Below are positions 1-22,952 of a stretch of DNA of 64,000 nt, one piece after another. The position numbers were made by a program, and so were the translations under genes. Numbering within the stretch: the stretch's first letter is position 1; each line of letters starts with the position of its first letter. Below the pieces are notes generated by a model. It had not been told where the DNA came from, did not search any database, and worked only from the letters and a program-made list of their open reading frames with translations. Source of the stretch: Rhizobium sp. 32-5/1 (GTDB lineage Bacteria; Pseudomonadota; Alphaproteobacteria; Rhizobiales; Rhizobiaceae); NCBI RefSeq assembly GCF_029537235.1, contig NZ_CP120638.1, forward strand, positions 2,656,501 through 2,720,500. The letters are read 5' to 3'.

Positions 1-735
1 TCCGATCTCATCTTGCGTATATCGGCGCGGTGCGGCAGGGACCTCGGTCGAGGCGGTTCGATTGCCAGGCGGATACTTCATAAGCTTTTTGGGCGTCAGC
101 AAATTGACGGTGCCGGGCAGCCGGAGAACGCGGTCGATATTCTGGACAGCGTCGCCGCGCAGCGCCTTCGCCAAGGCTTTCCCGCATCCTTCTGCCCATT
201 GCCCCTCGGCGCCCGCGTCAATGCTCTCTGCAGCCAGCCAGATATGTTGCAAACCGTTGCCGGTATCGATCGTCAGCGATGGCGGGAATTGTGCGGCGTC
301 GGGCAGCTGGCGTGACCGAAGTTCGGCGCGTGCCTCGGCGAACTCGGAAGGGGTCAGCGGCCGGTCGTCATGCTTGATCGGGTCGAGATCAACACCCACT
401 CCACGGATGCGGGCGATATCAGCTTTTTCGAGCTTTTTGTTCGGCGCATCCGGCCGCGGCTCGTTCAACGAAAAATAGCAGTTCGCTTTCGCGTTGTTGC
501 GATCGACCCAATCGGCGATTTCGTGCCAGCTGTTTGGCGGAAATGTCCGCCCGGTCGGCGCTTGGTTCGGCCCTATCGCAACGACATTGTGCCATCCATG
601 CAGGTCCAGAGCCTGAAGGAAAGCCACGGCATCCCGAGCGGCTGGCGACCGCTCCGGAACATTGGCAACCACGTCGCCAAAGCAAGCATTGCCTTGCGCG
701 GAAGGGCCGTCATGCTGTATATAAGCGCTGTGCAT
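1..735 (-). CDS. RepB/AEP-like DNA primase of the element (partial, runs off left edge)
   Basis: An open frame of 245 codons runs from ATG at 735 to position 1 without a stop. The start has a good ribosome site (GGAG, six bases before ATG). Readable motifs are VDLDP near residue 127, which fits the metal-binding DxD of archaeo-eukaryotic-type primases, IDTGNGLQHIW, which resembles the GNG(Y/L)H stretch of plasmid RepB-type primases, and RLPGTVN shortly after. These suggest the N-terminal primase domain of an island replication protein; the helicase or PriCT part, if any, lies outside. It follows the 92-codon HTH gene by 40 bases. Family assignment is from motifs only and the enzymatic role is inferred. 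Confidence 0.72.
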   Translation of the reverse strand, partial: MHSAYIQHDGPSAQGNACFGDVVANVPERSPAARDAVAFLQALDLHGWHNVVAIGPNQAPTGRTFPPNSWHEIADWVDRNNAKANCYFSLNEPRPDAPNKKLEKADIARIRGVGVDLDPIKHDDRPLTPSEFAEARAELRSRQLPDAAQFPPSLTIDTGNGLQHIWLAAESIDAGAEGQWAEGCGKALAKALRGDAVQNIDRVLRLPGTVNLLTPKKLMKYPPGNRTASTEVPAAPRRYTQDEIG

Positions 736-775
736 ACTGATCTCCAAGGCGGACCGTTCCAGCGGGCCGCCTTAT

Positions 776-1054
776 TCATTTGAGGGGATTGGAAGCCACC
801 AGCGCCAGGCGCGTTGGCGGGGCCTTGACGTCAGCCGGCGCGACAGGCTCCACGGCAGCGACATAGGCGATCAGGCTCGGAACCGAGACGACAAGCGGGG
901 CACCTTGCTTGATGCGGTGCCCGATCAGCATTCCGCTTCCGATGCGCCGGCGCACCCATCCAGGCGAGCGAGCGGTAATTTCGGCGGCTTCCTCAAGCGA
1001 TAGAAAAGCCCGATCCCGCCAAGGGATGTAGGGCGCTTTTCGTTGCGACTTCAT
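776..1054 (-). CDS. Small helix-turn-helix protein, excisionase-like
   Basis: A 92-residue protein. Residues about 18-45 (FLSLEEAAEITARSPGWVRR and following) read as a winged HTH of the MerR/excisionase type, with the usual 'LSLEEAAEIT..S..WVRR.I..G.L' spacing. The start at 1054 is preceded by AGGAG eight bases upstream. It lies between a 200-residue unknown gene (24-base gap) and the primase gene (40-base gap) on the same strand, so it is probably co-transcribed. It may act as a recombination directionality factor or a repressor. The C-terminal half is low complexity (Ala/Pro/Val) with no recognised domain. Confidence 0.7.
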   Translation of the reverse strand: MKSQRKAPYIPWRDRAFLSLEEAAEITARSPGWVRRRIGSGMLIGHRIKQGAPLVVSVPSLIAYVAAVEPVAPADVKAPPTRLALVASNPLK

Positions 1055-1078
1055 GGGATGGTCTCCTGGTTGAGCTCA

Positions 1079-1681
1079 TCACCCTGCCGCGAAGCGTTCC
1101 GCCGAAATAGGGCTGGCATGCCGAGATGCGAAGCGCTCGCGCTTTTCATCGTCCGCTGCGACACGCTGCCGGATCTCGATTTCGTCGATCACCAACATGG
1201 TTTTCGCAAGGGCGCCAAGCAGGGATCGCGCCCGGCTGGCCGCCTTCAAAATGCGAGTATGCCCCTTTTCTACTAAGTCCAATTGATCAGGAATACCCAA
1301 ACGCGCGGCGGCTTTCACAATTGCGGCGCCTTTTGTCGGTTCCGTCACCATGGCCTCAAACACGGCCGCGGCACACACCCAAGCCCCCATATCCTTCCGG
1401 GGGCGCCCAACCCGGGAATAGTTCTTCCCGTGTTCCTCGGGTAAGAGCTCCGCAACCGACGCAGCGATATCGGAGTAGACGGTCATGGATTTTGCAACGG
1501 CCAGCTGTTCGGCCCGCGTCCTCTTTTCGCTGGCCGCCGTCATCCAGTAGAGATGAAAGGCGACGTCCTTGGGATCGCCTACGGCCACGGCCCACCTATC
1601 GAATTCGCTCTCGCTCTCCGCAAGTTGAGCGGCATAGGCATTCAACTCGGCTACGGCTAGGTTCAGCAACGACGTCATCAT
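1079..1681 (-). CDS. Unknown element protein with GRPRK motif
   Basis: 200 residues starting at the tandem ATGATG that overlaps the stop of the AlpA-like gene (ATGA), so translational coupling is likely. I do not recognise the family. The N-terminal half is acidic and helical (residues 1-80). A VGRPRKD stretch sits near residue 92, followed by an Ala-rich helical region, and the C-terminus is charged. GRPRK resembles an AT-hook core and also occurs in the protein encoded at 2031-2456. Because of its place between two HTH genes it may be a DNA-binding or regulatory protein, which is inference. Confidence 0.6.
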   Translation of the reverse strand: MMTSLLNLAVAELNAYAAQLAESESEFDRWAVAVGDPKDVAFHLYWMTAASEKRTRAEQLAVAKSMTVYSDIAASVAELLPEEHGKNYSRVGRPRKDMGAWVCAAAVFEAMVTEPTKGAAIVKAAARLGIPDQLDLVEKGHTRILKAASRARSLLGALAKTMLVIDEIEIRQRVAADDEKRERFASRHASPISAERFAAG

Positions 1682-1920
1682 TGAGCCCCTGTTGCAGACC
1701 CGGCGACCCAAGCGCGGACGTCCGCAGCGCGGTAGCGGGGGCGCCCCTCGACATGAGTGATCGTAGGACCGCGGCCGACCTTCGCCCATTTTTTGAATGT
1801 CTGGACAGCAAATCCGGACATGAAGGCGACTTGCTTACGAGTGAGAAATGCACTGTCGGGCAACGCGTCGATGTCGAGTTTTGCGCCCAGTGCCAAAAAA
1901 TCAGGTGTGTCCTTCTGCAT
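1678..1920 (-). CDS. AlpA-like HTH regulator/excisionase
   Basis: 80 residues. The segment 'LTRKQVAFMSGFAVQTFKKW' (about residues 26-45) followed by 'GRGPTITHVEGRPRYRAADVRAWV' is the classic layout of AlpA/excisionase-like MerR-superfamily proteins: HTH, a basic wing, then 'RY...DV..W'. The start at 1920 has GGAG seven bases upstream. It is the first gene after a 110-base intergenic region, so it probably heads the operon that leads to the primase. In P4-like elements AlpA controls integrase and excision. The same role here is inference. Confidence 0.78.
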   Translation of the reverse strand: MQKDTPDFLALGAKLDIDALPDSAFLTRKQVAFMSGFAVQTFKKWAKVGRGPTITHVEGRPRYRAADVRAWVAGSATGAQ

Positions 1921-2030
1921 TCGTGTTCTCCAGTTGATAACCCTCTATGCCCCCAAGGGTAGGCAATGGGTGTCAAGCGGTCACGGAAACCAACAGACAA
2001 AACATACAAGTTTGAATTAACTAGCTTATT
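1921..2030 (-). promoter_or_regulatory. Probable promoter/operator region of the AlpA-like operon
   Basis: This is the only intergenic gap between the integrase pair and the AlpA-like operon. On the minus strand TTGACA (1973-1968) could be a -35 box, but no good -10 is found at 17 bases. An imperfect inverted repeat, TGCCTACCC-TT-GGGGGCA on the minus strand (about 1965-1948), lies between it and the start codon and is a candidate operator. The + strand copy contains GGGTAGGCA (1957-1965), close to the GGGTAGCAC pair next to the integrase start. Confidence 0.35.
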
Positions 2031-2456
2031 TCAGATATTTGGCTTTGATTTTTGTAGGTTTCCTGGCCCTCGGTTTTCGCAAACGCCTCTTCTCAGGGGA
2101 GGAAACTCGGAACGGGGCGGATCTTCCAACCACTTCAATACCGCTTCAATGTTCTCTGCCGTCTGCTCGGGTCGCGGAAACAGTCCGCATACGATCGCGC
2201 TGGCGACCGCAAAACCGCCTTTGAAGGCATCCTTCATTGAGCCGTTCTCATCGGCGCAACCGTATTTGCCGTACGCGAAGAGCGCGAATTTGTGGATGTA
2301 ATCCGATCTAAGCATGAGACGCTCAACGATCTTCACCGTCTCTGGCAATTTTTTGTCTTCGACAGGGAGTTCTACGGCCCAGTCGTCGTGCTTTCTCGGC
2401 CGTCCGCGCGCATCCGGCACTCGGTATCTAAAGCCTGCCGTCTTGCCTGTCGTCAT
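2031..2456 (-). CDS. Unknown element protein coupled to the integrase
   Basis: 141 residues if started at ATG 2456, whose ATGA overlaps the integrase stop. A longer upstream reading would lie inside the integrase and is not preferred. The N-terminus carries RGRPRKHDDW (about residues 16-25), an AT-hook-like basic motif. The middle is predicted helical ('ETVKIVERLMLRSDYIHKFA'), and the C-terminus is rich in Pro, Arg and Lys. No family is recognised. The coupling suggests production together with the integrase, possibly as an accessory or directionality factor. Confidence 0.6.
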   Translation of the reverse strand: MTTGKTAGFRYRVPDARGRPRKHDDWAVELPVEDKKLPETVKIVERLMLRSDYIHKFALFAYGKYGCADENGSMKDAFKGGFAVASAIVCGLFPRPEQTAENIEAVLKWLEDPPRSEFPPLRRGVCENRGPGNLQKSKPNI

Positions 2457-3683
2457 GCGAATGCCCCGAGCTGTGCTGCATCTTTGGCGATAATCGCAGC
2501 GACATGCTTCGCCCAATTGCTGAAGGCGCCGCGAAGCTGATCTTCCGCGTCGTCACGATTGTAGACGGCCTCCAGGTCTTCCCGCGCGTGCCCGAGCGCC
2601 AGCTCGGCAGTGTCCTTGTCCACGCCCAGCCGGGACAGGCCAGTGCGGAACGTGCGGCGCAAATCGTGCAGCGTGAAGCTGACGCCGGAAGCTTTCACCA
2701 GTTTGGCCAACATTTTATTCCAGCCGCTCATTTTGCCGCCGGTGCGCGAAGATGGGAAGACCAGATCAGAGCGCGCATCGACCTTGCAGGCCGCCAGGAG
2801 GTCGGAAAGCATGTCGTGGACATAGACTGTGTGTCCTCGCGCCTGTTTGGTGAACGTGGGGGCAGATCGATCGCCGAGGCCGCCTTGTTCAACATTTCTC
2901 GGAGAAGGCCGGCTCCTCGCTGCGGCGGCAGCCAGTAAGGATCAAGAAGCGGATGTAGCGACCAAACACTTGATCGGGATCGGCGGCCTTCCAAACCTTC
3001 AGCAGTTCAGCGTCACTCAACGCCCGTCCGTGCTGTTCCTTTTCAAGCTTCTCCTGGCGCGTGCCTCGCCCCTTCTGGTAGCCGGCAAGGGGATTGCTGT
3101 CCAAGACCTTCTGCTCAAACACACACCAGCCCAGAAACGTCCTGCAGCGGGATCTGAACGCATCGGCGGCGCCGTTCTGACCTTCCCGCTCCAGCTTCTT
3201 GATAATCGCTGCGAAGTCGGACCCCTTCATCTCGCGGACGTCTTTGCTGAGATGAGCCGCCAGACGCCGGCGGAGAAGGCTCATAACCATGCTTGTCGCG
3301 ACATACTTTCGCCGCTTCAAGTCGAGCTCATACGTGTCGAGAAGGTCGGATATCCTGGCTTTTTCGCTGCGCCGACTTTCCGCTCTATCGCGGGCCGGGT
3401 CGCCGCCGGCCGCGACCTTGCCCAACATCGCAAAGGCGATCTTGCGAGCCTCGGCGGCTGTCTTAATCGTGTCGGGACCGCCGATCTTGACCTTCTTCAT
3501 GTTGGCGGCCCGGCCGGCACCCGACGGCCTATAGCTGACGATGTAGCTTTTGGAGGTGCCGCGGATACGAAGACCGAAGCCGGTCACTTCAGTATCCCAG
3601 ATAATCACTTCGGATTTTGCCTGCGGGAGCGATGCGCCCTTGACGACGACGTCCGTAATTTTCACTTTGTTCGGGGATGACAT
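2453..3683 (-). CDS. Phage-type tyrosine integrase (two frame breaks)
   Basis: About 410 residues when two single-base deletions are bridged, near 2909-2917 and in the G5 run at 2858-2862. The N-terminal part (from MSSPNKVKITD) is the arm-binding DUF4102-like domain with 'VTGFGLRIRGTSKSYIV'. A core-binding SAM-like domain follows. The catalytic part has LTGCRRSE (first Arg), HDLRRT (His-x-x-Arg) and LGHA...VYNRDD (second His and the Tyr). ATG 3683 has GGAG upstream. The gene points away from the tRNA-Gly fragment 140 bases off, the standard arrangement for islands that integrate in tRNA genes. The breaks may be sequencing errors, given the same pattern elsewhere, or the gene may be truly dead. 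Confidence 0.88.
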
Positions 3684-3692
3684 TCACGCTCC

Positions 3693-3820
3693 GGGTAGCA
3701 CAGGGGTAGCACCATTATTGCACCCGCTCTTATACCCATATACCCAAAAAATGGCAAATATTAAATGAAGTCAGCCGGTTAATCGGAGCCGCATACCCCT
3801 TAGGATACCTACAGATACCC
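3693..3820. repeat. Short repeats flanking the integrase: candidate arm-type sites
   Basis: Between the integrase start and the tRNA fragment there are two direct copies of GGGTAGCAC (3693-3701 and 3704-3712). There are also five ATACC(C/T) hexamers (3732-3737, 3740-3745, 3793-3798, 3805-3810, 3815-3820). Clustered short direct repeats beside the att core are typical of integrase arm sites, but binding is inferred. Confidence 0.45.
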
Positions 3821-3877
3821 TAGACCATGACCTTGCCAAGGTTGGGGTCGAGCGTTCGAATCGCTTCACCCGCTCCA
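3821..3877 (+). other. attR-like remnant: 3' part of tRNA-Gly(GCC)
   Basis: From 3828 the sequence folds as the anticodon arm (5-bp stem with two G-T wobbles, loop TTGCCAA, anticodon GCC at 3835-3837), the variable loop, the T arm with TTCGAAT, the acceptor 3' strand CACCCGC and the encoded CCA at 3875-3877. The D arm and acceptor 5' strand (expected GCGGGTG...) are absent. Similarity to tRNA may start at 3821 (TAGAcCATGACC). This is what integration into the anticodon region leaves on the displaced side. The intact tRNA should be at the other end of the element. Confidence 0.85.
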
Positions 3878-4022
3878 TTTTCTCTTCCGGACTTTATCGC
3901 CGATGCAATTGCGGTTTTTGAGCCGTATGAGGCTTCGTCTTTAGCCGTTGCGGCGCTTCCATTTGATGATAGCTCTCCTTCTTCGACCAATGCGACGGTA
4001 CGGCTTATTGGTAGGATGAGCC

Positions 4023-4038
4023 GGCAGGTTGCCCTGCC
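4023..4038. terminator. Weak hairpin between att site and uup
   Basis: GGCAGG-TTGC-CCTGCC is a 6-bp stem just downstream of the uup stop. There is no T run on the uup transcript, so it is a weak terminator at best. The rest of 3878-4044 holds nothing I recognise. Confidence 0.35.
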
Positions 4039-4044
4039 AGCATT

Positions 4045-5871
4045 TTATCCCTCGATTTCTTCGCGCAACATTTCCAGTTCCAGCCATTCTTCTTCCATCT
4101 TCGCAATCGAGGCGCGCAGTTTTTCCATCTCGGTGGCGAGCGCGGAGAAGCGGGTGGGGTTCTTGGCAAAGAGGTTTGGGTCGGCCATTTCCTTTTCGCG
4201 TTTGGCGATTTCGGCTTCGGCCTTCTGCATGTCCTTCGGCAGGTTTTCGAGCGCGAATTTCTGCTTGAAGGACAGTTTGCCCTTGGCGGTCTTGGGTGTG
4301 GCGGTTGAGCCGCCGGCGTCGGAGGATCTGGCTTTCTCCGCCTTGTCGGCTCGCTTCTTTTCGTCGGCCATGCCTTTGCGCTGCGCCATCATGTCGGAAT
4401 AGCCGCCGGCATATTCGATCCAGCGGCCATCCGGCGCATCCGGGTTGGCCGGTGCGATGGTCGAGGTGACGGTGCGGTCTAGGAAGTCGCGGTCGTGGCT
4501 GACGAGGATGACGGTGCCGGAAAAGCCGGCGACGATTTCCTGAAGCAGATCCAGCGTTTCGATGTCGAGGTCGTTGGTCGGCTCGTCGAGGATCAAAAGG
4601 TTGGTCGGGCGCGCGAGAATGCGGGCCAGCATCAGCCGGGCGCGCTCGCCGCCGGACAGGTTCTTGATCGGAGTTCTGGCCTGCTCGGGCTGGAACAGGA
4701 ACTCCTTCATGTAGCCGGTGACATGGCGCTGTTCGCCGTTGACCAAAAGGTTTTCGCCGCGGCCGTCGGTGAGATAGTGGGCCAGCGTATCCTCGAGGTT
4801 CAGGTCCTCGCGGCGCTGGTCGAGCGTGGCGATCTCGAGATTGGTTCCGAGCTTGACTAAGCCTTCGTCCGGCTCGATCTGCCCGGTCAGCATTTTCAGG
4901 AGTGTCGTCTTGCCGGCGCCGTTCGGGCCGACGAGGCCGATGCAGTCGCCGCGGTGCACACGGATCGAAAACGGGGCAACGATGGTGCGGTCGCCATAGG
5001 CCTTGGTGATCTTTTCGGCCTCGATGACAAGCTTGCCGGAATCACGCGCGTCGGAGACGGTCGCCTGCACCGAGCCCTGCGGGCCGTTGTGGCCGCGGTG
5101 TTTGGCGCGCAGGTCCTGAAGCGCGCCCAGCCGGCGCATGTTGCGCTTGCGCCTCGCGGTGACGCCGTAGCGCAGCCAGTGTTCCTCGCGCTCGATTTCC
5201 TTGCCGAGCTTGTGCTGCTCGATTTCTTCCTCTTCCAGCATCTTGTCGCGCCAGGCTTCGAAGAAGGCGAAACCCTGGTTGAGCCGGCGCGACTGGCCGC
5301 GATCGAGCCAGACGGTGGCATTGGAAACCTTTTCGAGGAAGCGACGGTCATGGGAGATGACCACAAGCGCCGAGCGGCTCTTGATCAGTTCCCCTTCCAG
5401 CCATTCGATGGTCGGCAGGTCGAGATGGTTGGTCGGTTCGTCGAGCAGCAGGACATCAGGCTCCGGCGCCATGACGCGGGCAAGGGCCGCACGCCGGGCT
5501 TCGCCGCCGGAAAGCTGCGCCGGATCTTCCTCGCCGGTCAGGCCCAGATGTTCGAGCAGATAGGCGACGCGGTAGGGATCGTCGCTCGGGCCAAGGCCGG
5601 CTTCCGCATAGGCAAGCACGGTGTCATAGCCCTCGAAATCCGGTGCCTGGTGGAGATAGCGGATCGTTGTCGAGGGATGGCGGAAGATTTCGCCCGTCTG
5701 CGGCTCGGCAAGGCCGGCTGCCATCTTCATCAGGGTCGATTTGCCCGAGCCATTGCGGCCGACCAGGCAGATGCGGTCGCCGGGCTCGACCTGCAGGTTT
5801 GCGCCGGCCAGCAGCGGCGTGCCGCCGAAGGACAGGAAGATGTCATCGAGTTTCAGAATGGGTGGCGCCAA
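4045..5871 (-). CDS. uup: ABC-F ATPase, Uup type
   Basis: 608 residues with two ABC domains and no membrane segments. Walker A GRNGSGKST is at about 38-46, signature LSGGE at 120-124 and Walker B LLLDEPTNHLD after it. The second domain has GPNGAGKTT near 317, LSGGERARLML and LILDEPTNDLD. A C-terminal coiled coil rich in Lys/Glu (from about 515) is the mark of the Uup branch. ABC-F proteins act on ribosomes, and Uup is also linked to transposon excision and replication intermediates. The start is TTG at 5871 with GGGAG seven bases upstream, only two bases after the thiamine pyrophosphokinase stop, so the two are co-transcribed. It is the first chromosomal gene beyond the integrated element. 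Confidence 0.9.
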   Translation of the reverse strand: MAPPILKLDDIFLSFGGTPLLAGANLQVEPGDRICLVGRNGSGKSTLMKMAAGLAEPQTGEIFRHPSTTIRYLHQAPDFEGYDTVLAYAEAGLGPSDDPYRVAYLLEHLGLTGEEDPAQLSGGEARRAALARVMAPEPDVLLLDEPTNHLDLPTIEWLEGELIKSRSALVVISHDRRFLEKVSNATVWLDRGQSRRLNQGFAFFEAWRDKMLEEEEIEQHKLGKEIEREEHWLRYGVTARRKRNMRRLGALQDLRAKHRGHNGPQGSVQATVSDARDSGKLVIEAEKITKAYGDRTIVAPFSIRVHRGDCIGLVGPNGAGKTTLLKMLTGQIEPDEGLVKLGTNLEIATLDQRREDLNLEDTLAHYLTDGRGENLLVNGEQRHVTGYMKEFLFQPEQARTPIKNLSGGERARLMLARILARPTNLLILDEPTNDLDIETLDLLQEIVAGFSGTVILVSHDRDFLDRTVTSTIAPANPDAPDGRWIEYAGGYSDMMAQRKGMADEKKRADKAEKARSSDAGGSTATPKTAKGKLSFKQKFALENLPKDMQKAEAEIAKREKEMADPNLFAKNPTRFSALATEMEKLRASIAKMEEEWLELEMLREEIEG

Positions 5872-5873
5872 GA

Positions 5874-6540
5874 TCAGGCTCCCGAAAGGTCATAAGGCCG
5901 GGCGAGAATGATTGCGCGGCCTGAGGAAAGGAAAAGCGGACGGCGCCTTCGGCGACATTGGATATCGTGCGCGAGGAACCGAACGGCAGATGGAAATCGG
6001 TGAGCGGGTAACGGGCATTGGCGATGGTCAGCCCTGTCAGCGTATCGAGCCCGAGGATCGAGAAAAGGCTGCCTTTCGGCAGGTCAATGGTGCGGCTGCC
6101 GGGCAGCAGCGGATAGGCCTCTTCCTCGCCGGAAGTCAGAAGCACGTCGATACCGTCTTCGGCGAGCTTTGCCGCATGCAGCAGGTGCATGAAGGCGTGG
6201 TCGCTGCGTTCGCCACCAAGCGCACCGGCCAGAAGCAGCTTTTTGCGCCAAGCTCCAGCGCAGCACTGACGGCGATCGCGCCATCGGTCTCGTTCTTGGC
6301 TGGCGGGTAGGGCTCCCGCTCGATGCCGGGCCATTGCTCAATCAGCGCCCGAGGGGTGGAATCGAAATCGCCCAACCAGCGCTCTGGGGTCACGCCGAGG
6401 GTTTTTGCATGCCGCATGCCGCCGTCGGCCGCAATCACACGCATTCCGTCGATATGCCGCCGCAGCCGTTTGGTCGGCGTCAGTTCGCCGCCCATCAGGA
6501 TTGCAAAGGCCGGCTCTGTCATGGCGTCCCGTTCGTTCAT
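5874..6540 (-). CDS. thiN: Thiamine pyrophosphokinase (two frame breaks)
   Basis: Phosphorylates thiamine to thiamine diphosphate with ATP. About 222 residues after bridging two one-base deletions: the run at 6240-6244 (A5 for A6 in the coding strand) and around 5930. Readable landmarks are AADGGMRHA, GDFDS (metal-binding), NETDGAIA, GALGGERSDHAFMHL and a C-terminal SNVAEGAVRFS followed in the corrected frame by SGRAIILARPYDL. The start may be ATG 6540 or ATG 6522. Its stop is two bases before uup. It makes functional sense with the thiamine importer at 9000-12366, although no riboswitch is seen in front of this gene. Confidence 0.88.
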
Positions 6541-8999: not shown

Positions 9000-10009
9000 A
9001 TGCGCAAGATACTTCTCTCGATGGCAGCGGCTCTGGCCGCGTTGGTGTCTGCCGGTCCGGTGGCCGCGCAGGAAAAAGTCCTCGTTGTTTATACCTATGA
9101 GAGTTTCGTCAGCGAATGGGGACCTGGCCCCAAGGTCGCCGAAGCCTTCGAAAAGCAATGCGCCTGCAAGGTCAACTATGTCGGTGTCGCCGATGGCGTC
9201 GAACTGCTGACCCGGTTGAAGCTCGAGGGGAGGGAACCAAGGCGGATATCGTACTTGGTCTCGATACGAACCTTATCTCTGAAGCCAAGGCGACCGGCCT
9301 TTTTGTGCCGCATGGGCTGGATGTTTCGGCCGTCAAGGTTCCGGGTGATTTCTCCGATGATGTCTTCGTGCCCTATGATTATGGCCACTTCGCCGTGATC
9401 TACGACACCGAGACAATCAAGACGCCGCCCACCAGCCTCAAGGACCTTGTCGAAGGCGATCCGTCGCAGAAGATCGTCATCGAGGATCCGCGCACGTCGA
9501 CGCCCGGTCTCGGCCTGCTGCTCTGGGTGAAGTCGGTCTATGGCGATGAGGCAGGAACTGCCTGGGCCAAGCTCAAGGACCGAGTTCTGACCGTCACGCC
9601 CGGCTGGTCGGAAGCCTATGGCCTGTTCACGAAAGGCGAGGCGCCCATGGTTCTGTCCTATACGACGTCGCCGGCCTATCATATGGTTGCGGAAAATACG
9701 GATCGTTATCAGGCGGCCGCGTTTTCGGAAGGCCACTATATCCAGATCGAGGTAGCCGGCATGATCAAGACTGCCAAGGACCCAGCACTTGCCAAGCAGT
9801 TCATGGCCTTTGTCATCGGATCGCAATTCCAGACGATCATCCCGACAACCAACTGGATGATGCCCGTTGGCCCCCTGGACGCGCCGCTGCCGGAGGCATT
9901 CGGCAAGCTCGTCCAGCCGGCGAAGACCTTCCTGATGTCGTCGGAGGATGTTGCGTCCAACCGCAAGGCCTGGATCGACGAGTGGCTCGCCGCCATGAGC
10001 ATGAACTGA
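9000..10009 (+). CDS. thiB: Thiamine ABC transporter, periplasmic binding protein (one frame break)
   Basis: About 336 residues when a missing G in the run at 9227-9230 is restored ([17 protein letters not shown]). It has a Sec signal peptide, residues 1-24, ending AQA-type '[17 protein letters not shown]'. Binding-protein landmarks are the mature start [17 protein letters not shown], '[11 protein letters not shown]', '[13 protein letters not shown]', '[19 protein letters not shown]' and 'TTSPAYH'. It captures thiamine/TPP in the periplasm and hands it to ThiPQ. It starts six bases after a perfect SD under riboswitch control and overlaps thiP. Confidence 0.93.
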
Positions 10010-11654
10010 GTCGCGATGGGGGCATTGAACGCAGATTGACGCTGGCCGCCGGGGCGCTCTGCCTCGTCGGCATTCTGCTGTTCGTTGCCCTTGCGGCCCT
10101 TGCGCTCGTGACATTTGAGCAGGCGGGAGCAGCGCGAACCGTCTCCTTCGATGCCTATATCTGGCGGGTCACGCGGTTCACCCTGTTGCAAGCCACACTT
10201 TCGACCGGCCTTTCGGTGCTTCTCGCCATTCCCGTGGCAAGGGCTTTGGCGCGGCAAAGTCGCTTTCCCGGTCGCGTCTGGGTCATCCGGCTGATGGCGC
10301 TACCGCTCGGGCTGCCGGCACTGGTTGCAGCGCTGGGTTTGATCGGCATCTGGGGACGGCAGGGTGTTCTCAATGGCGGGTTGGCATGGCTGGGGCTTGA
10401 GCAGCCGGTCAGCATCTACGGGCTTTCCGGAATTCTTCTGGCCCATGTCTTCTTCAATATGCCGCTTGCCGTCCGGCTGATGCTCACGGGCCTTGAGCGC
10501 ATACCAGGCGAATACTGGCTTGTCGGCGCCAATCTCGGCATGCGGTCCTGGTCGATTTTCCGTTTTGTCGAGTGGCCTGTTATTCGCGGTCTTTTGCCGG
10601 GCATTGCCAGCCTGATCTTCATGCTGTGTGCTACGAGTTTCACGTTGGTGCTGACGCTGGGCGGCGGACCAGCGGCAAGCACGATCGAGGTGGCGATCTA
10701 CCAGGCGCTGCGCTTCGATTTCGATCCGCCGCGCGCGATCGCGCTCTCGCTGCTGCAGATCGCGATCACCGGCCTGCTTCTGCTTACCCTGCGGCGACTG
10801 GCGCCGCCATCGGCTGATGGCCCGACCTCCGGCCGGAATGTGCGTCGTTTCGATGGCCGTGTCGGTGTCAGAAGAATGGGCGATTTTACGGTGATCGGTC
10901 TTGCGGCGATCTTCACGCTGCTGCCGCTTGGCTCCGTTGTCGTCTCGGGCTTGCTGGCGGATCTTTCCGGCCTTGCCCTTGATCCGATGGTGCAGCGCGG
11001 GCTTGTGACGAGCCTTGCGATCGCTCTGTGTTCAGCCGTGTTTTGTGTGGGGGAACGGCGGCGATGATCCGCGCGCGGCAAATGGCGCTTTCACCGCGCA
11101 GGCCGGGAACCGCGGCGCGCGGGCTGGCCGCATCGGTGTCCGTCTCGACGTCGCTTGTTCTTCTCGTGCCGCCGGTTGTGCTAGGGTCCGGCTGGTTCCT
11201 GCTGTTGCGGCCTTTCGGCGACGTCAGCCGTTTCGCGCCCTTCCTGGTCATCATCATCAACGTCCTGATGGCCTTGCCCTTTGTCTATCGGGTTCTCCAG
11301 CCAGCCATGGAAACCCATTGGGGGCGAACCGCGCGGCTTTCCGCAAGCCTTGGTCTTGGCGGATGGAACCGTTGGCGGGCCATCGACTGGCCGGGCCTTC
11401 GCAAGCCGATCCTGATGGCGATGTCGTTTGCCGCTGCGCTGTCTCTCGGTGATCTCGGGGCCGTTGCACTTTTTGGTTCGCAGGATATGGTCACTCTGCC
11501 CTGGCTGCTCTACAGCCGGATGGGCAGCTATCGCTCGACGGACGCGGCCGGGCTGGCGCTGTTTCTGGGGCTGGTCTGCCTTCTTCTGACAATTTTCGGA
11601 ACGGCCGCGCAAACACGGGAACGTGGGGATGAGGATATCGATGGCAGACGCTGA
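9982..11654 (+). CDS. thiP: Thiamine ABC transporter permease (one frame break)
   Basis: A fused permease of about 555 residues with roughly 12 membrane segments and two binding-protein-dependent transport domains. EAA-type loops are at '[19 protein letters not shown]' (first half) and '[19 protein letters not shown]' (second half). The reading frame breaks in the G run at 11049-11053, where one extra G gives [12 protein letters not shown]. The start is uncertain: GTG 9982 overlaps thiB by 28 bases, and an ATG at 10016 would be in frame if the G5 run at 10018-10022 were also one base short. It lies between thiB and thiQ in the riboswitch operon. Confidence 0.9.
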
Positions 11655-21599: not shown

Positions 21600-22840
21600 T
21601 CAGCCCTGATTGGTCATCGCGCCGGCCACAGCACCGTCAATCAGCCCCTCGACGCGGATACGCTGGTCGAGCTTCGTCTTGAAATCGGCACCCGCCGTCT
21701 TGGCTTCTTCCGGCAGCGCCTGCCATTCGAGGCTTGCGCCCTTGAAATCGCCATTGGTCAGCTTGTTCTCGATCCGCGCCACGACGGCAGCCGGGCCTTC
21801 TCCTCTACACTGCCGACCGGGCGAACCCGGATGGCGGACGATGCGCTGTCGATCAGCCGCGAGAAGATACCCTGGTTCGGATCCTTGTATGTGGTCGCCT
21901 CCAGCATTGCGTCGGCGACTGCAGGGAAATCACGCACCATGTCGGCACGCGAGGCAACGCCAGTTGCGGCATCGTCGGCAAGCCCCGTCACGGCCGGATC
22001 GGCGGCGGCGATGCTCTTCAAGGCGTCGAGTTCGGCGAGGAATGGCCCGCCGCGATCGATCGCGGTCTTCAGAGCCGTCACGGCAACGGCGCGGGCCAGT
22101 TGCACGTCGCTTGCGGGCTCGTCAATCTTCTTTTCCGCAGCGTCGATGCGGGTCGATAGTTCGGTGGTCGCCGTCTGCGTCGAAGCCTGCGCATCCGCGA
22201 GTCCGGATTTCAGGGCGGCGAGTTCATTGGTCAGATTGCTGATGCTGGCCTCAAGCCCAGACACATCGGCTGCCGTGCCGCTGCCGGTCTCCGTGGCCGC
22301 CTTTTCGAGGGCGGCGAGGCGCGTTTCGAGGGGCGCTAGATCGATCGGGGCCGACGTTTGCGAGGTCGAGGCCAGCTGAGCCTTGAGTGCCTCGACGTCT
22401 GCGGCCAGCGCTTGGCTGACATTGCTGCCGCTCTCCGGCGTGAGCGATGGCAGAATGCCGGCATATTGCAGGCCGCCTGCGCCAAGAAGCGTAATCAAAC
22501 CGCCGACGATACCGGCTGCCAGAGCGCCCGCATTCGATGCGGGTTTTGCCGGGCTGCCTGCATTCTGCACCGGTTCCTCGACACGAGCCGGCTCTTCCGC
22601 AAAGGCCGCGGATGCGGATTCAGCCCTCGCGTCGCTGTCCCTGCTCTCGATATTTTCGGCCGTGTCGTCCGCTGGAGCAGGCTCAGCTACGTTTTCCGAT
22701 GCGGCGACAGGCTCTTCAGCCGGCGTTTCGGGAACGGCCGCGCTATCAACCTGATCCGGTGCCGGGCTGTTGGCTTCCAGCTCGATCGTCAATGGCTCCT
22801 GCTCAGCTTTCGAACGGCGCGGCGGGGTTTCGGGTACCAT
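21600..22840 (-). CDS. Mic60/mitofilin-like inner membrane protein (one frame break)
   Basis: About 413 residues after adding one base at about 21802 (VEGEGPAAVVARIENKLTNGDF). The N-terminal 95 residues are acidic and Pro/Ala-rich. A single membrane helix is 'AGALAAGIVGGLITLLGAGG', followed by a long coiled-coil segment (about 140-250) and a C-terminal helical mitofilin-type domain ending 'GLIDGAVAGAMTNQG'. In alphaproteobacteria Mic60 homologues are encoded between hemD and hemY and shape intracytoplasmic membranes; the gene order here matches. The start was taken at ATG 22840 (SD GGGAAGAG). Assigned by architecture plus context. Confidence 0.82.
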
Positions 22841-22952
22841 GATCATCTCTTCCCGTTGAATTGCATTGCATAAATTCGCGGTCCAGCCCTAAACCTAGAC
22901 ACGCAGGTGGCCTAGGGAAAGCCCCTTGGCTGCGATTAGGCGCAAAACCTTT

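Follow-up and report, generated by a model that had tools for sequence, protein, structure and literature searches.

A tRNA-Gly(GCC) element of Rhizobium is probably a phage satellite, with a putative split small terminase and an ejection-type gene

Introduction

The first 3.9 kb of a 64,000-nucleotide stretch of the genome of Rhizobium sp. 32-5/1 (the window; C1:2656501-2720500, where C1 is the host contig NZ_CP120638.1) form the right end of an integrated element, and this locus raises the question of what kind of element it is and how it would pass from one cell to the next. A sequence-only reading of the window had proposed a satellite-like integrative element in tRNA-Gly(GCC), and this proposal is borne out by a second copy of the attachment site (att), by empty sites in relatives, by the association of an integrase with helix-turn-helix (HTH) proteins and a primase, and by the lack of any match to conjugation or capsid genes among the element's open reading frames (ORFs). 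Our analysis suggests that the element probably belongs to a family of Hyphomicrobiales phage satellites that parasitise P22-type podoviruses resembling RHph_N65 (MN988536; N65 below). The putative hallmarks of this family, an ejection-type protein, a small terminase lacking its N-terminal part (headless) and an HGGxTG protein, are encoded left of the window, where the sequence-only reading had expected the cargo to lie and where defence-type genes are found as well. The host assembly (G000) consists of 5.6 Mb in three contigs, with a completeness of 87%. Two other genomes have two labels each: G024 is AFS031141 and G296 is R. aethiopicum SEMIA 4074.

Results

The element is bounded by a 52-nt repeat of tRNA-Gly(GCC)

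The tRNA remnant noticed in the sequence-only reading is the right att copy (window 3830..3881, plus strand), which consists of 48 nt of the 3' part of tRNA-Gly(GCC) followed by TTTT. The intact tRNA-Gly(GCC) lies on the same contig, 22.1 kb to the left (C1:2638142-2638216), and an exact copy of the 52 nt is found at and after its 3' part (C1:2638169-2638220), the two repeats being set 22,161 bp apart, which is the span of the element. A query made of the flank and the tRNA was matched in 26/26 genomes of the genus, and 2 of the 16 same-genus intervals between the tRNA and the flanking ABC-F gene that were compared with G000 are empty sites (G023 and G013), in which the tRNA is followed by about 0.2 kb of unalignable sequence and then by the flank found right of the element in G000. 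Another of the 16 (G015) has a second copy of the att site along with a remnant of the element's ejection gene, and the other 13 have no match to element proteins except the ABC-F gene itself.

The distance from tRNA-Gly(GCC) to the ABC-F gene (window 3900-5871) varies within the genus from that of an empty site to more than 20 kb, where both lie on one contig, and the interval therefore looks like an insertion hot spot. The G015 remnant (L061:17312-18730), at the same tRNA-Gly site, aligns poorly in its middle and adjoins a gene pair that we take to be IS21-like.

The element encodes an ejection-type protein related to that of phage N65

The first phage-related gene of the element encodes a protein of 768 aa (C1:2640050-2642356, minus strand). 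Only three of 50,697 phage records were matched by this protein in a tblastn search, the best being RHph_N65 (58.4% identity over 91% of the protein; 58% over 708 columns), and it is the only product in the element matched by any of the 66 N65 ORFs. Its N65 homologue, EVC08_011, directly follows EVC08_010, which the record annotates as a putative injection protein, and precedes the lysin gene. A prophage in genome G199 has a P22-like run of genes: an Hc3 head closure gene (phrog_578, 3.5e-84), two unknown genes and a 'DNA ejection' protein gene (phrog_598, 5e-7) are followed by a gene in the place of EVC08_010 (best PHROG a tape-measure family, 1.9e-9), the homologue of the ejection-type gene and a tail protein gene. 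In P22, genes 7, 20 and 16 stand in that order and encode proteins of 229, 471 and 609 aa, and N65 likewise has adjacent genes of rising size (EVC08_008, 010 and 011, of 205, 496 and 708 aa), although, unlike P22, it has a fourth gene, EVC08_009, between them. Taken together, gene order and the annotation of the neighbouring gene make a fairly strong case that this is an ejection protein.

The R. aethiopicum copy of the ejection gene keeps only its C-terminal half, and the second cassette protein (EJ2) has partial matches in two plasmid records.

An HGGxTG protein is coupled to a headless small terminase

The second phage-related feature is a pair of genes, of which the upstream one encodes the HGGxTG protein (C1:2653900-2654484; NCBIfam NF041373, 6.4e-8) and the downstream one the headless small terminase of 120 aa (C1:2653541-2653903). 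The latter shares 43% identity over 72 aa with its R. tibeticum counterpart (E=6e-17) and, weakly, 32% over 65 aa with the N65 protein EVC08_056 (E=6e-5); the R. tibeticum protein itself matches the C-terminal half of EVC08_056 with E=1e-13, and a profile of the satellite proteins matches EVC08_056 with 1.3e-12. The first 60 residues of EVC08_056 match small-terminase families (phrog_51, 1.9e-4; Pfam Terminase_2, 0.012, which is below the cut-off and ranks behind an equally sub-threshold match to DUF1542 at 0.0016). In 5/5 small terminases of N65-type phages, about 50 aa of N-terminal sequence precede the shared C-terminal part, and 14/14 satellite proteins start after this stretch; the protein of our element thus has the C-terminal part of a small terminase and lacks the N-terminal, DNA-binding part. 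In agreement with this assignment, a profile built from 13 satellite proteins only had two small terminases, 6w7t (0.0011) and 7joq (0.010), as its best matches among 177,635 PDB sequences, covering residues about 60-139 of 152 and 157, respectively, and the small-terminase match improved to about 7e-5 when N65 was added to the profile. Fold searches with the R. tibeticum copies gave nothing usable for either phage-related protein: the predicted fold of the headless terminase had a pLDDT (predicted local distance difference test) score of 71.5 and its best small-terminase match ranked 27th with E=6.3, and that of the ejection-type protein scored 69.6, with no PDB match at E<=0.001.

The stop and start codons of the two genes overlap by 4 nt in 12/14 pairs (in G549 and G626 as judged from the ORFs and the junction), the exceptions being R. 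tibeticum and R. aethiopicum, whose two genes are separated by 9 and 12 nt, respectively; the near copies G549/G654 and S152/L088 are not independent in this count. In G540 the two proteins are fused in one ORF of 307 aa, to which the phage collection contained no match, and a scan of viral contigs with one headless terminase found no relative. No N65 ORF (0/66) matches the HGGxTG protein in the ten elements compared, and Cys46, Cys57, Cys67 and His70 are invariant in 13 aligned HGGxTG proteins. We read the pair as a two-subunit, or split, small terminase in which the recognition part has been replaced.

Loss of the N-terminal domain would equally be expected of a dominant-negative small terminase, and the element could instead be a phage-interference island, whose headless terminase and ejection protein poison the packaging and the virions of the helper, with transfer a secondary matter. 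The G540 fusion and the tight coupling of the two genes, however, suggest that the recognition domain was replaced rather than lost, and we consider such an island quite unlikely.

Many of these proteins end in a tail of the form -[GD][IVLA]F[GDSE], which was considered as a docking tag for the large terminase and rejected as not specific to terminases. It is seen not only on HGGxTG proteins and headless terminases but also on several primase-helicases, two integrases and several N65 proteins, DNA enzymes included (for example L007:5541-6484, L070:13805-15928, L068:15821-17137 and others). The tail is not used as evidence here because the background count (38/393 ORFs, many of them from the HGGxTG and headless-terminase families) found it on primase-helicases, integrases and N65 DNA enzymes too.

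The same layout recurs across Hyphomicrobiales

The members of the proposed family share a layout made up of an integrase, HTH proteins, a primase-helicase, the HGGxTG protein, the headless terminase, an inverted resolvase, one to three N65-type ejection genes and cargo. A profile of the ejection protein matched 15/397 genomes of the order (3/26 within the genus), among which seven have this satellite layout (G000, G296, G549, G619, G638, G654 and G714), four have virion or large-terminase genes as neighbours (G580, G650, G697 and G759) and four with partial loci were left unclassed (G591, G680, G712 and G777). A scan of named genomes gave eight loci, with the layout in AFS031141, R. tibeticum, S152, R. 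aethiopicum and Alsobacter, a reduced layout in AFS091992 and two phage-like loci. Of 30 IMG/VR loci, 26 contain virion genes of the N65 or G199 type, the full layout is seen in L088, L080 has ejection genes, an integrase and cargo with no virion genes in the sequenced part that was compared, and L085 and L103 were left unclassed.

The HGGxTG/terminase pair was found at 15 loci (14 pairs and the fusion), 13 of which have N65-type ejection genes, a proportion biased by the fact that 12 of the 15 were found via the ejection gene. A scan with the terminase profile, which is less biased in this respect, matched 12/297 genomes, eight of them at E<1e-9; six of these eight have N65-type ejection genes, G540 has a match of 48 aa only and G679 has none. 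Of the four weaker matches, those in G534 and G671 lie in loci without the satellite layout, and those in G550 and G445 fell outside the comparison.

The size of these elements is not constant, a feature considered and rejected, since spans vary from 11.6 to 23.7 kb: AFS091992 has 11.6 kb, G714 14.7 kb, G024 about 22.0 kb (if two contigs abut), and repeats resembling tRNA sequence enclose 23.6 kb in G549 and 23.7 kb in G654. The G714 element is cleanly bounded, with 14,682 bp between 52-nt repeats of tRNA-Glu(TTC), and a PHROG search with 10 of its ORFs gave no match to a head, tail or terminase family. The stretches compared from R. tibeticum, R. aethiopicum, S152, Alsobacter, G619, G638 and two IMG/VR records contain no convincing att pair.

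A stretch of about 15 kb in G759 (L133:736-15797), beside tRNA-Pro(GGG), has a short integrase, a primase-like gene, G199-type ejection genes and a tail-protein-like gene, together with its own large terminase (phrog_38, 1.2e-94), and is perhaps another satellite class.

Ejection genes appear to be under selection and to be exchanged with phages

In nine further elements, the 66 N65 ORFs matched ejection-cassette proteins, the primase-helicase, the small terminase and the integrase only. Such N65 relatives of the primase-helicase, the terminase half and the ejection genes in several members are also what one would expect of a decaying N65-like prophage that had kept an integrase, replication genes, part of a small terminase and one virion gene by chance and was no longer mobile. 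The broken frames in G000, the lone ejection remnant at the same site in G015 and the half gene in R. aethiopicum fit this explanation as well. The frame breaks affect the integrase (two ORFs), the primase, DUF5131 and FRG genes of the element; in the rest of the window, however, 4/12 genes compared with G023 are also split over frames (window 5877-6540, 9000-11648 and 21603-22876, the first being what we take to be a thiamine-pyrophosphokinase-like gene), which suggests base-call indels in the assembly. Given these split genes and the 87% completeness, the breaks in the element may be due to base-call errors or to decay.

The ratio of nonsynonymous to synonymous substitution rates (dN/dS) of the ejection gene is 0.147 for the pair G000-G024, 0.26, 0.08, 0.09 and 0.20 for four other satellite pairs, and 0.32 and 0.23 for two phage pairs, values that are rough because dS comes close to 1 or exceeds it in several pairs. 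They point to purifying selection on the ejection gene between satellites, which argues against decay, as do the recurrence of the same reduced gene set, in the same order and mostly with the 4-nt overlap, in several families of the order, and the presence in ten elements of an HGGxTG gene without a match among the N65 ORFs. We therefore regard present-day decay of a prophage as unlikely, although the satellites may possibly have arisen by reduction long ago.

A tree of ejection proteins, 12 from satellites and 10 from phages or prophages, does not group the satellites in one clade: five changes are needed, four of them forced by starred branches, although this is fewer than in shuffles (mean 7.5), and N65-type phages fall between the satellite groups. 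The middle of the G015 ejection gene looks swapped, and the interleaved tree together with this swap would fit a repeated exchange of ejection genes with N65-like phages.

Genes at the right end and cargo

Within the window, the right end encodes an integrase, two HTH proteins, a primase and two GRPRK proteins, all on the minus strand, as the sequence-only reading had listed them, except that the integrase is not one gene but two ORFs. Its N-terminal part (2889..3683) has the arm-binding domain (Pfam PF13356, E=1.8e-10; PHROG integrase, E=3.5e-20) and its C-terminal catalytic part (2453..2812) matches Pfam PF00589 (E=1.5e-9), the frame being interrupted in the assembly. Next come a small GRPRK-motif protein (2031..2456), the excisionase/AlpA-like HTH protein HTH80 (80 aa, 1678..1920; phrog_66, E=8e-7; 65% identity over 65 aa to its G024 counterpart), the second GRPRK protein (201 aa, about 1079..1684), the HTH_17-like protein HTH92 (92 aa, 776..1054; 46% identity over 76 aa to the protein in the same place in satellite L129) and the N-terminal third of the primase-helicase (1..747), whose whole ORF has 733 codons (C1:2655046-2657247) and whose C-terminal end lies in another frame. 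The HTH_17 likeness of both HTH proteins is below the Pfam cut-off (E=0.0095 for HTH92). The GRPRK motif is presumably AT-hook-like. Both GRPRK proteins are as unfamiliar as they had seemed, with no family in Pfam, PHROGs or NCBIfam; they were dropped as a hallmark of the family because the stretches of the closest relative element hold no match to them.

Left of the window, the element begins with a gene for a MauJ-domain protein (C1:2638501-2639940; Pfam 8.5e-14), to the right of which lie the ejection-type gene, a gene for a 162-aa protein, TcmP (NCBIfam 9.5e-51) and, beside it, the broken DUF5131 gene (NCBIfam 1.2e-45), these last two being listed in PADLOC as PDC-M41, a candidate defence pair. 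Mid-element there is a piece of another tyrosine integrase (97 aa; C1:2646786-2647079, L006:12787-13080; PHROG 1.2e-10), perhaps from an older or nested insertion. To its right are the broken FRG gene (PADLOC PDC-S15), a DUF262/GmrSD-N gene (PADLOC NsnA-like), an HTH/Gp49 toxin-antitoxin-like pair, a resolvase and an excisionase-like HTH protein (HTH98), followed by the headless terminase, the HGGxTG protein and the primase-helicase. Two of the HTH proteins have weak secondary matches to the small-terminase HTH family phrog_57 (E=0.0017 and 0.02) behind better excisionase matches; we read them as excisionase-like, and a packaging role is possible. Other members carry other cargo, such as AbiD in R. 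tibeticum and PDC-S20 in G024.

All of this defence-type cargo would suit an interference island too, yet the three N65-type cassette genes present in S152 and in G626 exceed what a poison would need. The resolvase, the toxin-antitoxin-like pair, the second integrase fragment and the defence-type genes would also be at home in an integrative island of the ordinary sort that travels by conjugation or general transduction and contains stray phage genes. This we consider highly improbable, since the phage-derived genes recur as a set and no relaxase or type IV secretion system was matched among the element ORFs scanned (27 against Pfam and 20 against PHROGs). The same scans gave no match to a capsid, portal, tail or large-terminase family; with its one virion-type gene, the element is not altogether free of structural genes.

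Discussion

What, then, would this element do? It has att repeats, its own integrase, regulators and replication genes, and no genes were found with which it could build its own particles, all of which supports the view that it is probably a satellite of N65-like podoviruses. Upon infection by such a phage, it would be excised by its integrase and an excisionase-like HTH protein and replicated by its primase-helicase. The headless terminase would dock on the large terminase of the helper and the HGGxTG protein would supply a new DNA recognition, so that satellite DNA would enter the heads of the helper. The ejection protein encoded by the satellite would become part of the helper virion and help deliver this DNA, and the defence-type cargo could protect the new host.

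Several observations weigh against this model. Excision, induction and particles are not observable in the data used here, and induction, packaging and transfer are what we infer from gene content. The basis for calling the protein an ejection protein is gene order together with the annotation of a neighbour, there being no direct significant match: the ejection-type protein has no match in Pfam, PHROGs or PDB and, as the largest of its cassette, no significant similarity to P22 gp16, and its EVC08_010-type neighbour resembles P22 gp20 only marginally (E=0.0098, 28 columns). Of the four genes in the N65 cassette, the G000 element has just one, EJ2 is less constrained in three satellite pairs (dN/dS 0.49, 0.34 and 0.24), and two of the 15 pair loci have no ejection gene (G679) or a 48-aa match only (G540). 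That the HGGxTG protein would bind DNA is guessed from its C-C-C-H pattern, the integrase and primase frames are interrupted in the G000 copy, and the cargo may be compound because of the integrase fragment in the middle of the element. No N65-type large terminase was found in nine G-numbered host genomes, other types of helper not having been sought, nor in the R. tibeticum or S152 genomes (that of Alsobacter has a 27% match), and the helper would therefore come from outside. Lastly, the ejection protein gp44 of phage 80alpha is described, in the accessible part of the source, as dispensable for the transduction of Staphylococcus aureus pathogenicity islands (SaPIs) (PMC7290940).

A broader proposal, which we put forward tentatively and as somewhat less than probable, is that satellites throughout the order reprogramme both ends of virion traffic, with a split terminase that decides what is loaded and an ejection gene or cassette of their own that helps decide how it is unloaded, the head, portal, tail and motor being borrowed from N65-like podoviruses and ejection genes being traded both ways. 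If satellites retain a loading factor and an unloading protein and nothing else, they would reveal which of a virion's functions are tied to the particular DNA inside it, and a terminase split into recognition and docking subunits would, if true, be a new way to re-target a packaging motor. The family also seems to carry defence-type genes among Hyphomicrobiales.

How does the element compare with known systems? N65 shares with it one ejection-cassette protein and, weakly, the C-terminal half of the small terminase, and with other members two more cassette proteins, the primase-helicase and the integrase; in contrast to the element, N65 encodes a large terminase and other virion proteins, its small terminase is full-length, and it has no match to the HGGxTG protein. 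An intact prophage was rejected on the absence of a virion gene set and the single match among the N65 ORFs, and a conjugative element (integrative and conjugative or integrative and mobilizable) on the lack of a relaxase or secretion-system match in Pfam among the 27 ORFs scanned. P4-like satellites are marked by Psu, Delta/Ogr, Sid and the P4 alpha primase. The sequence-only reading had likened the early gene set to theirs, and the integrase, AlpA-type HTH protein and primase are indeed present, but no P4-specific family is among the Pfam and PHROG matches of the ORFs scanned, and P4-like membership was rejected.

The same three genes are shared with phage-inducible chromosomal islands (PICIs) and SaPIs, and their combination is one mark of PICIs. 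The HGGxTG gene and the terminase half follow the primase, where PICIs have their packaging module, and may have a packaging role. What differs is that the terminase here has no N-terminal part and occurs as a pair or a fusion with the HGGxTG protein, and that ejection-type genes are present. Capsid-forming PICIs, which according to the accessible part of PMC10690885 encode capsid, portal, connectors and both terminases, also bring some virion genes of their own; none of these was found in our element, and membership was rejected on the lack of an own capsid, portal and large terminase, both here and in the 10 G714 ORFs scanned. Packaging redirection through the small terminase is known from SaPI TerS and from the binding of TerS by Rpp (PMC10690885, same part), and this class of mechanism is established because known satellites re-target packaging in this way. 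As far as the available part of the source goes, ejection genes are not the defining feature of any satellite family known in 2024 (PMC11389934), and a literature search on satellites or chromosomal islands with ejection proteins, HGGxTG proteins or Rhizobium/Alphaproteobacteria hosts, in which most subscription papers were not covered, found no description of this family. Closest in concept is EcCIMP1, presented in the part of PMC11773190 available to us as a functional, transferable PICI of E. coli MP1 with DNA-transfer-protein-like genes after its primase and with Kapi1, a relative of P22, as its helper. By that description, with sequences left uncompared, it differs from our element in its host class and in that no HGGxTG/headless-terminase pair is mentioned in that part. 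With its DNA-transfer-like genes, EcCIMP1 makes the idea of a satellite that brings its own ejection functions less novel, yet supports it, and the G000 element would accordingly be a variant of a kind of satellite already known rather than a new kind.

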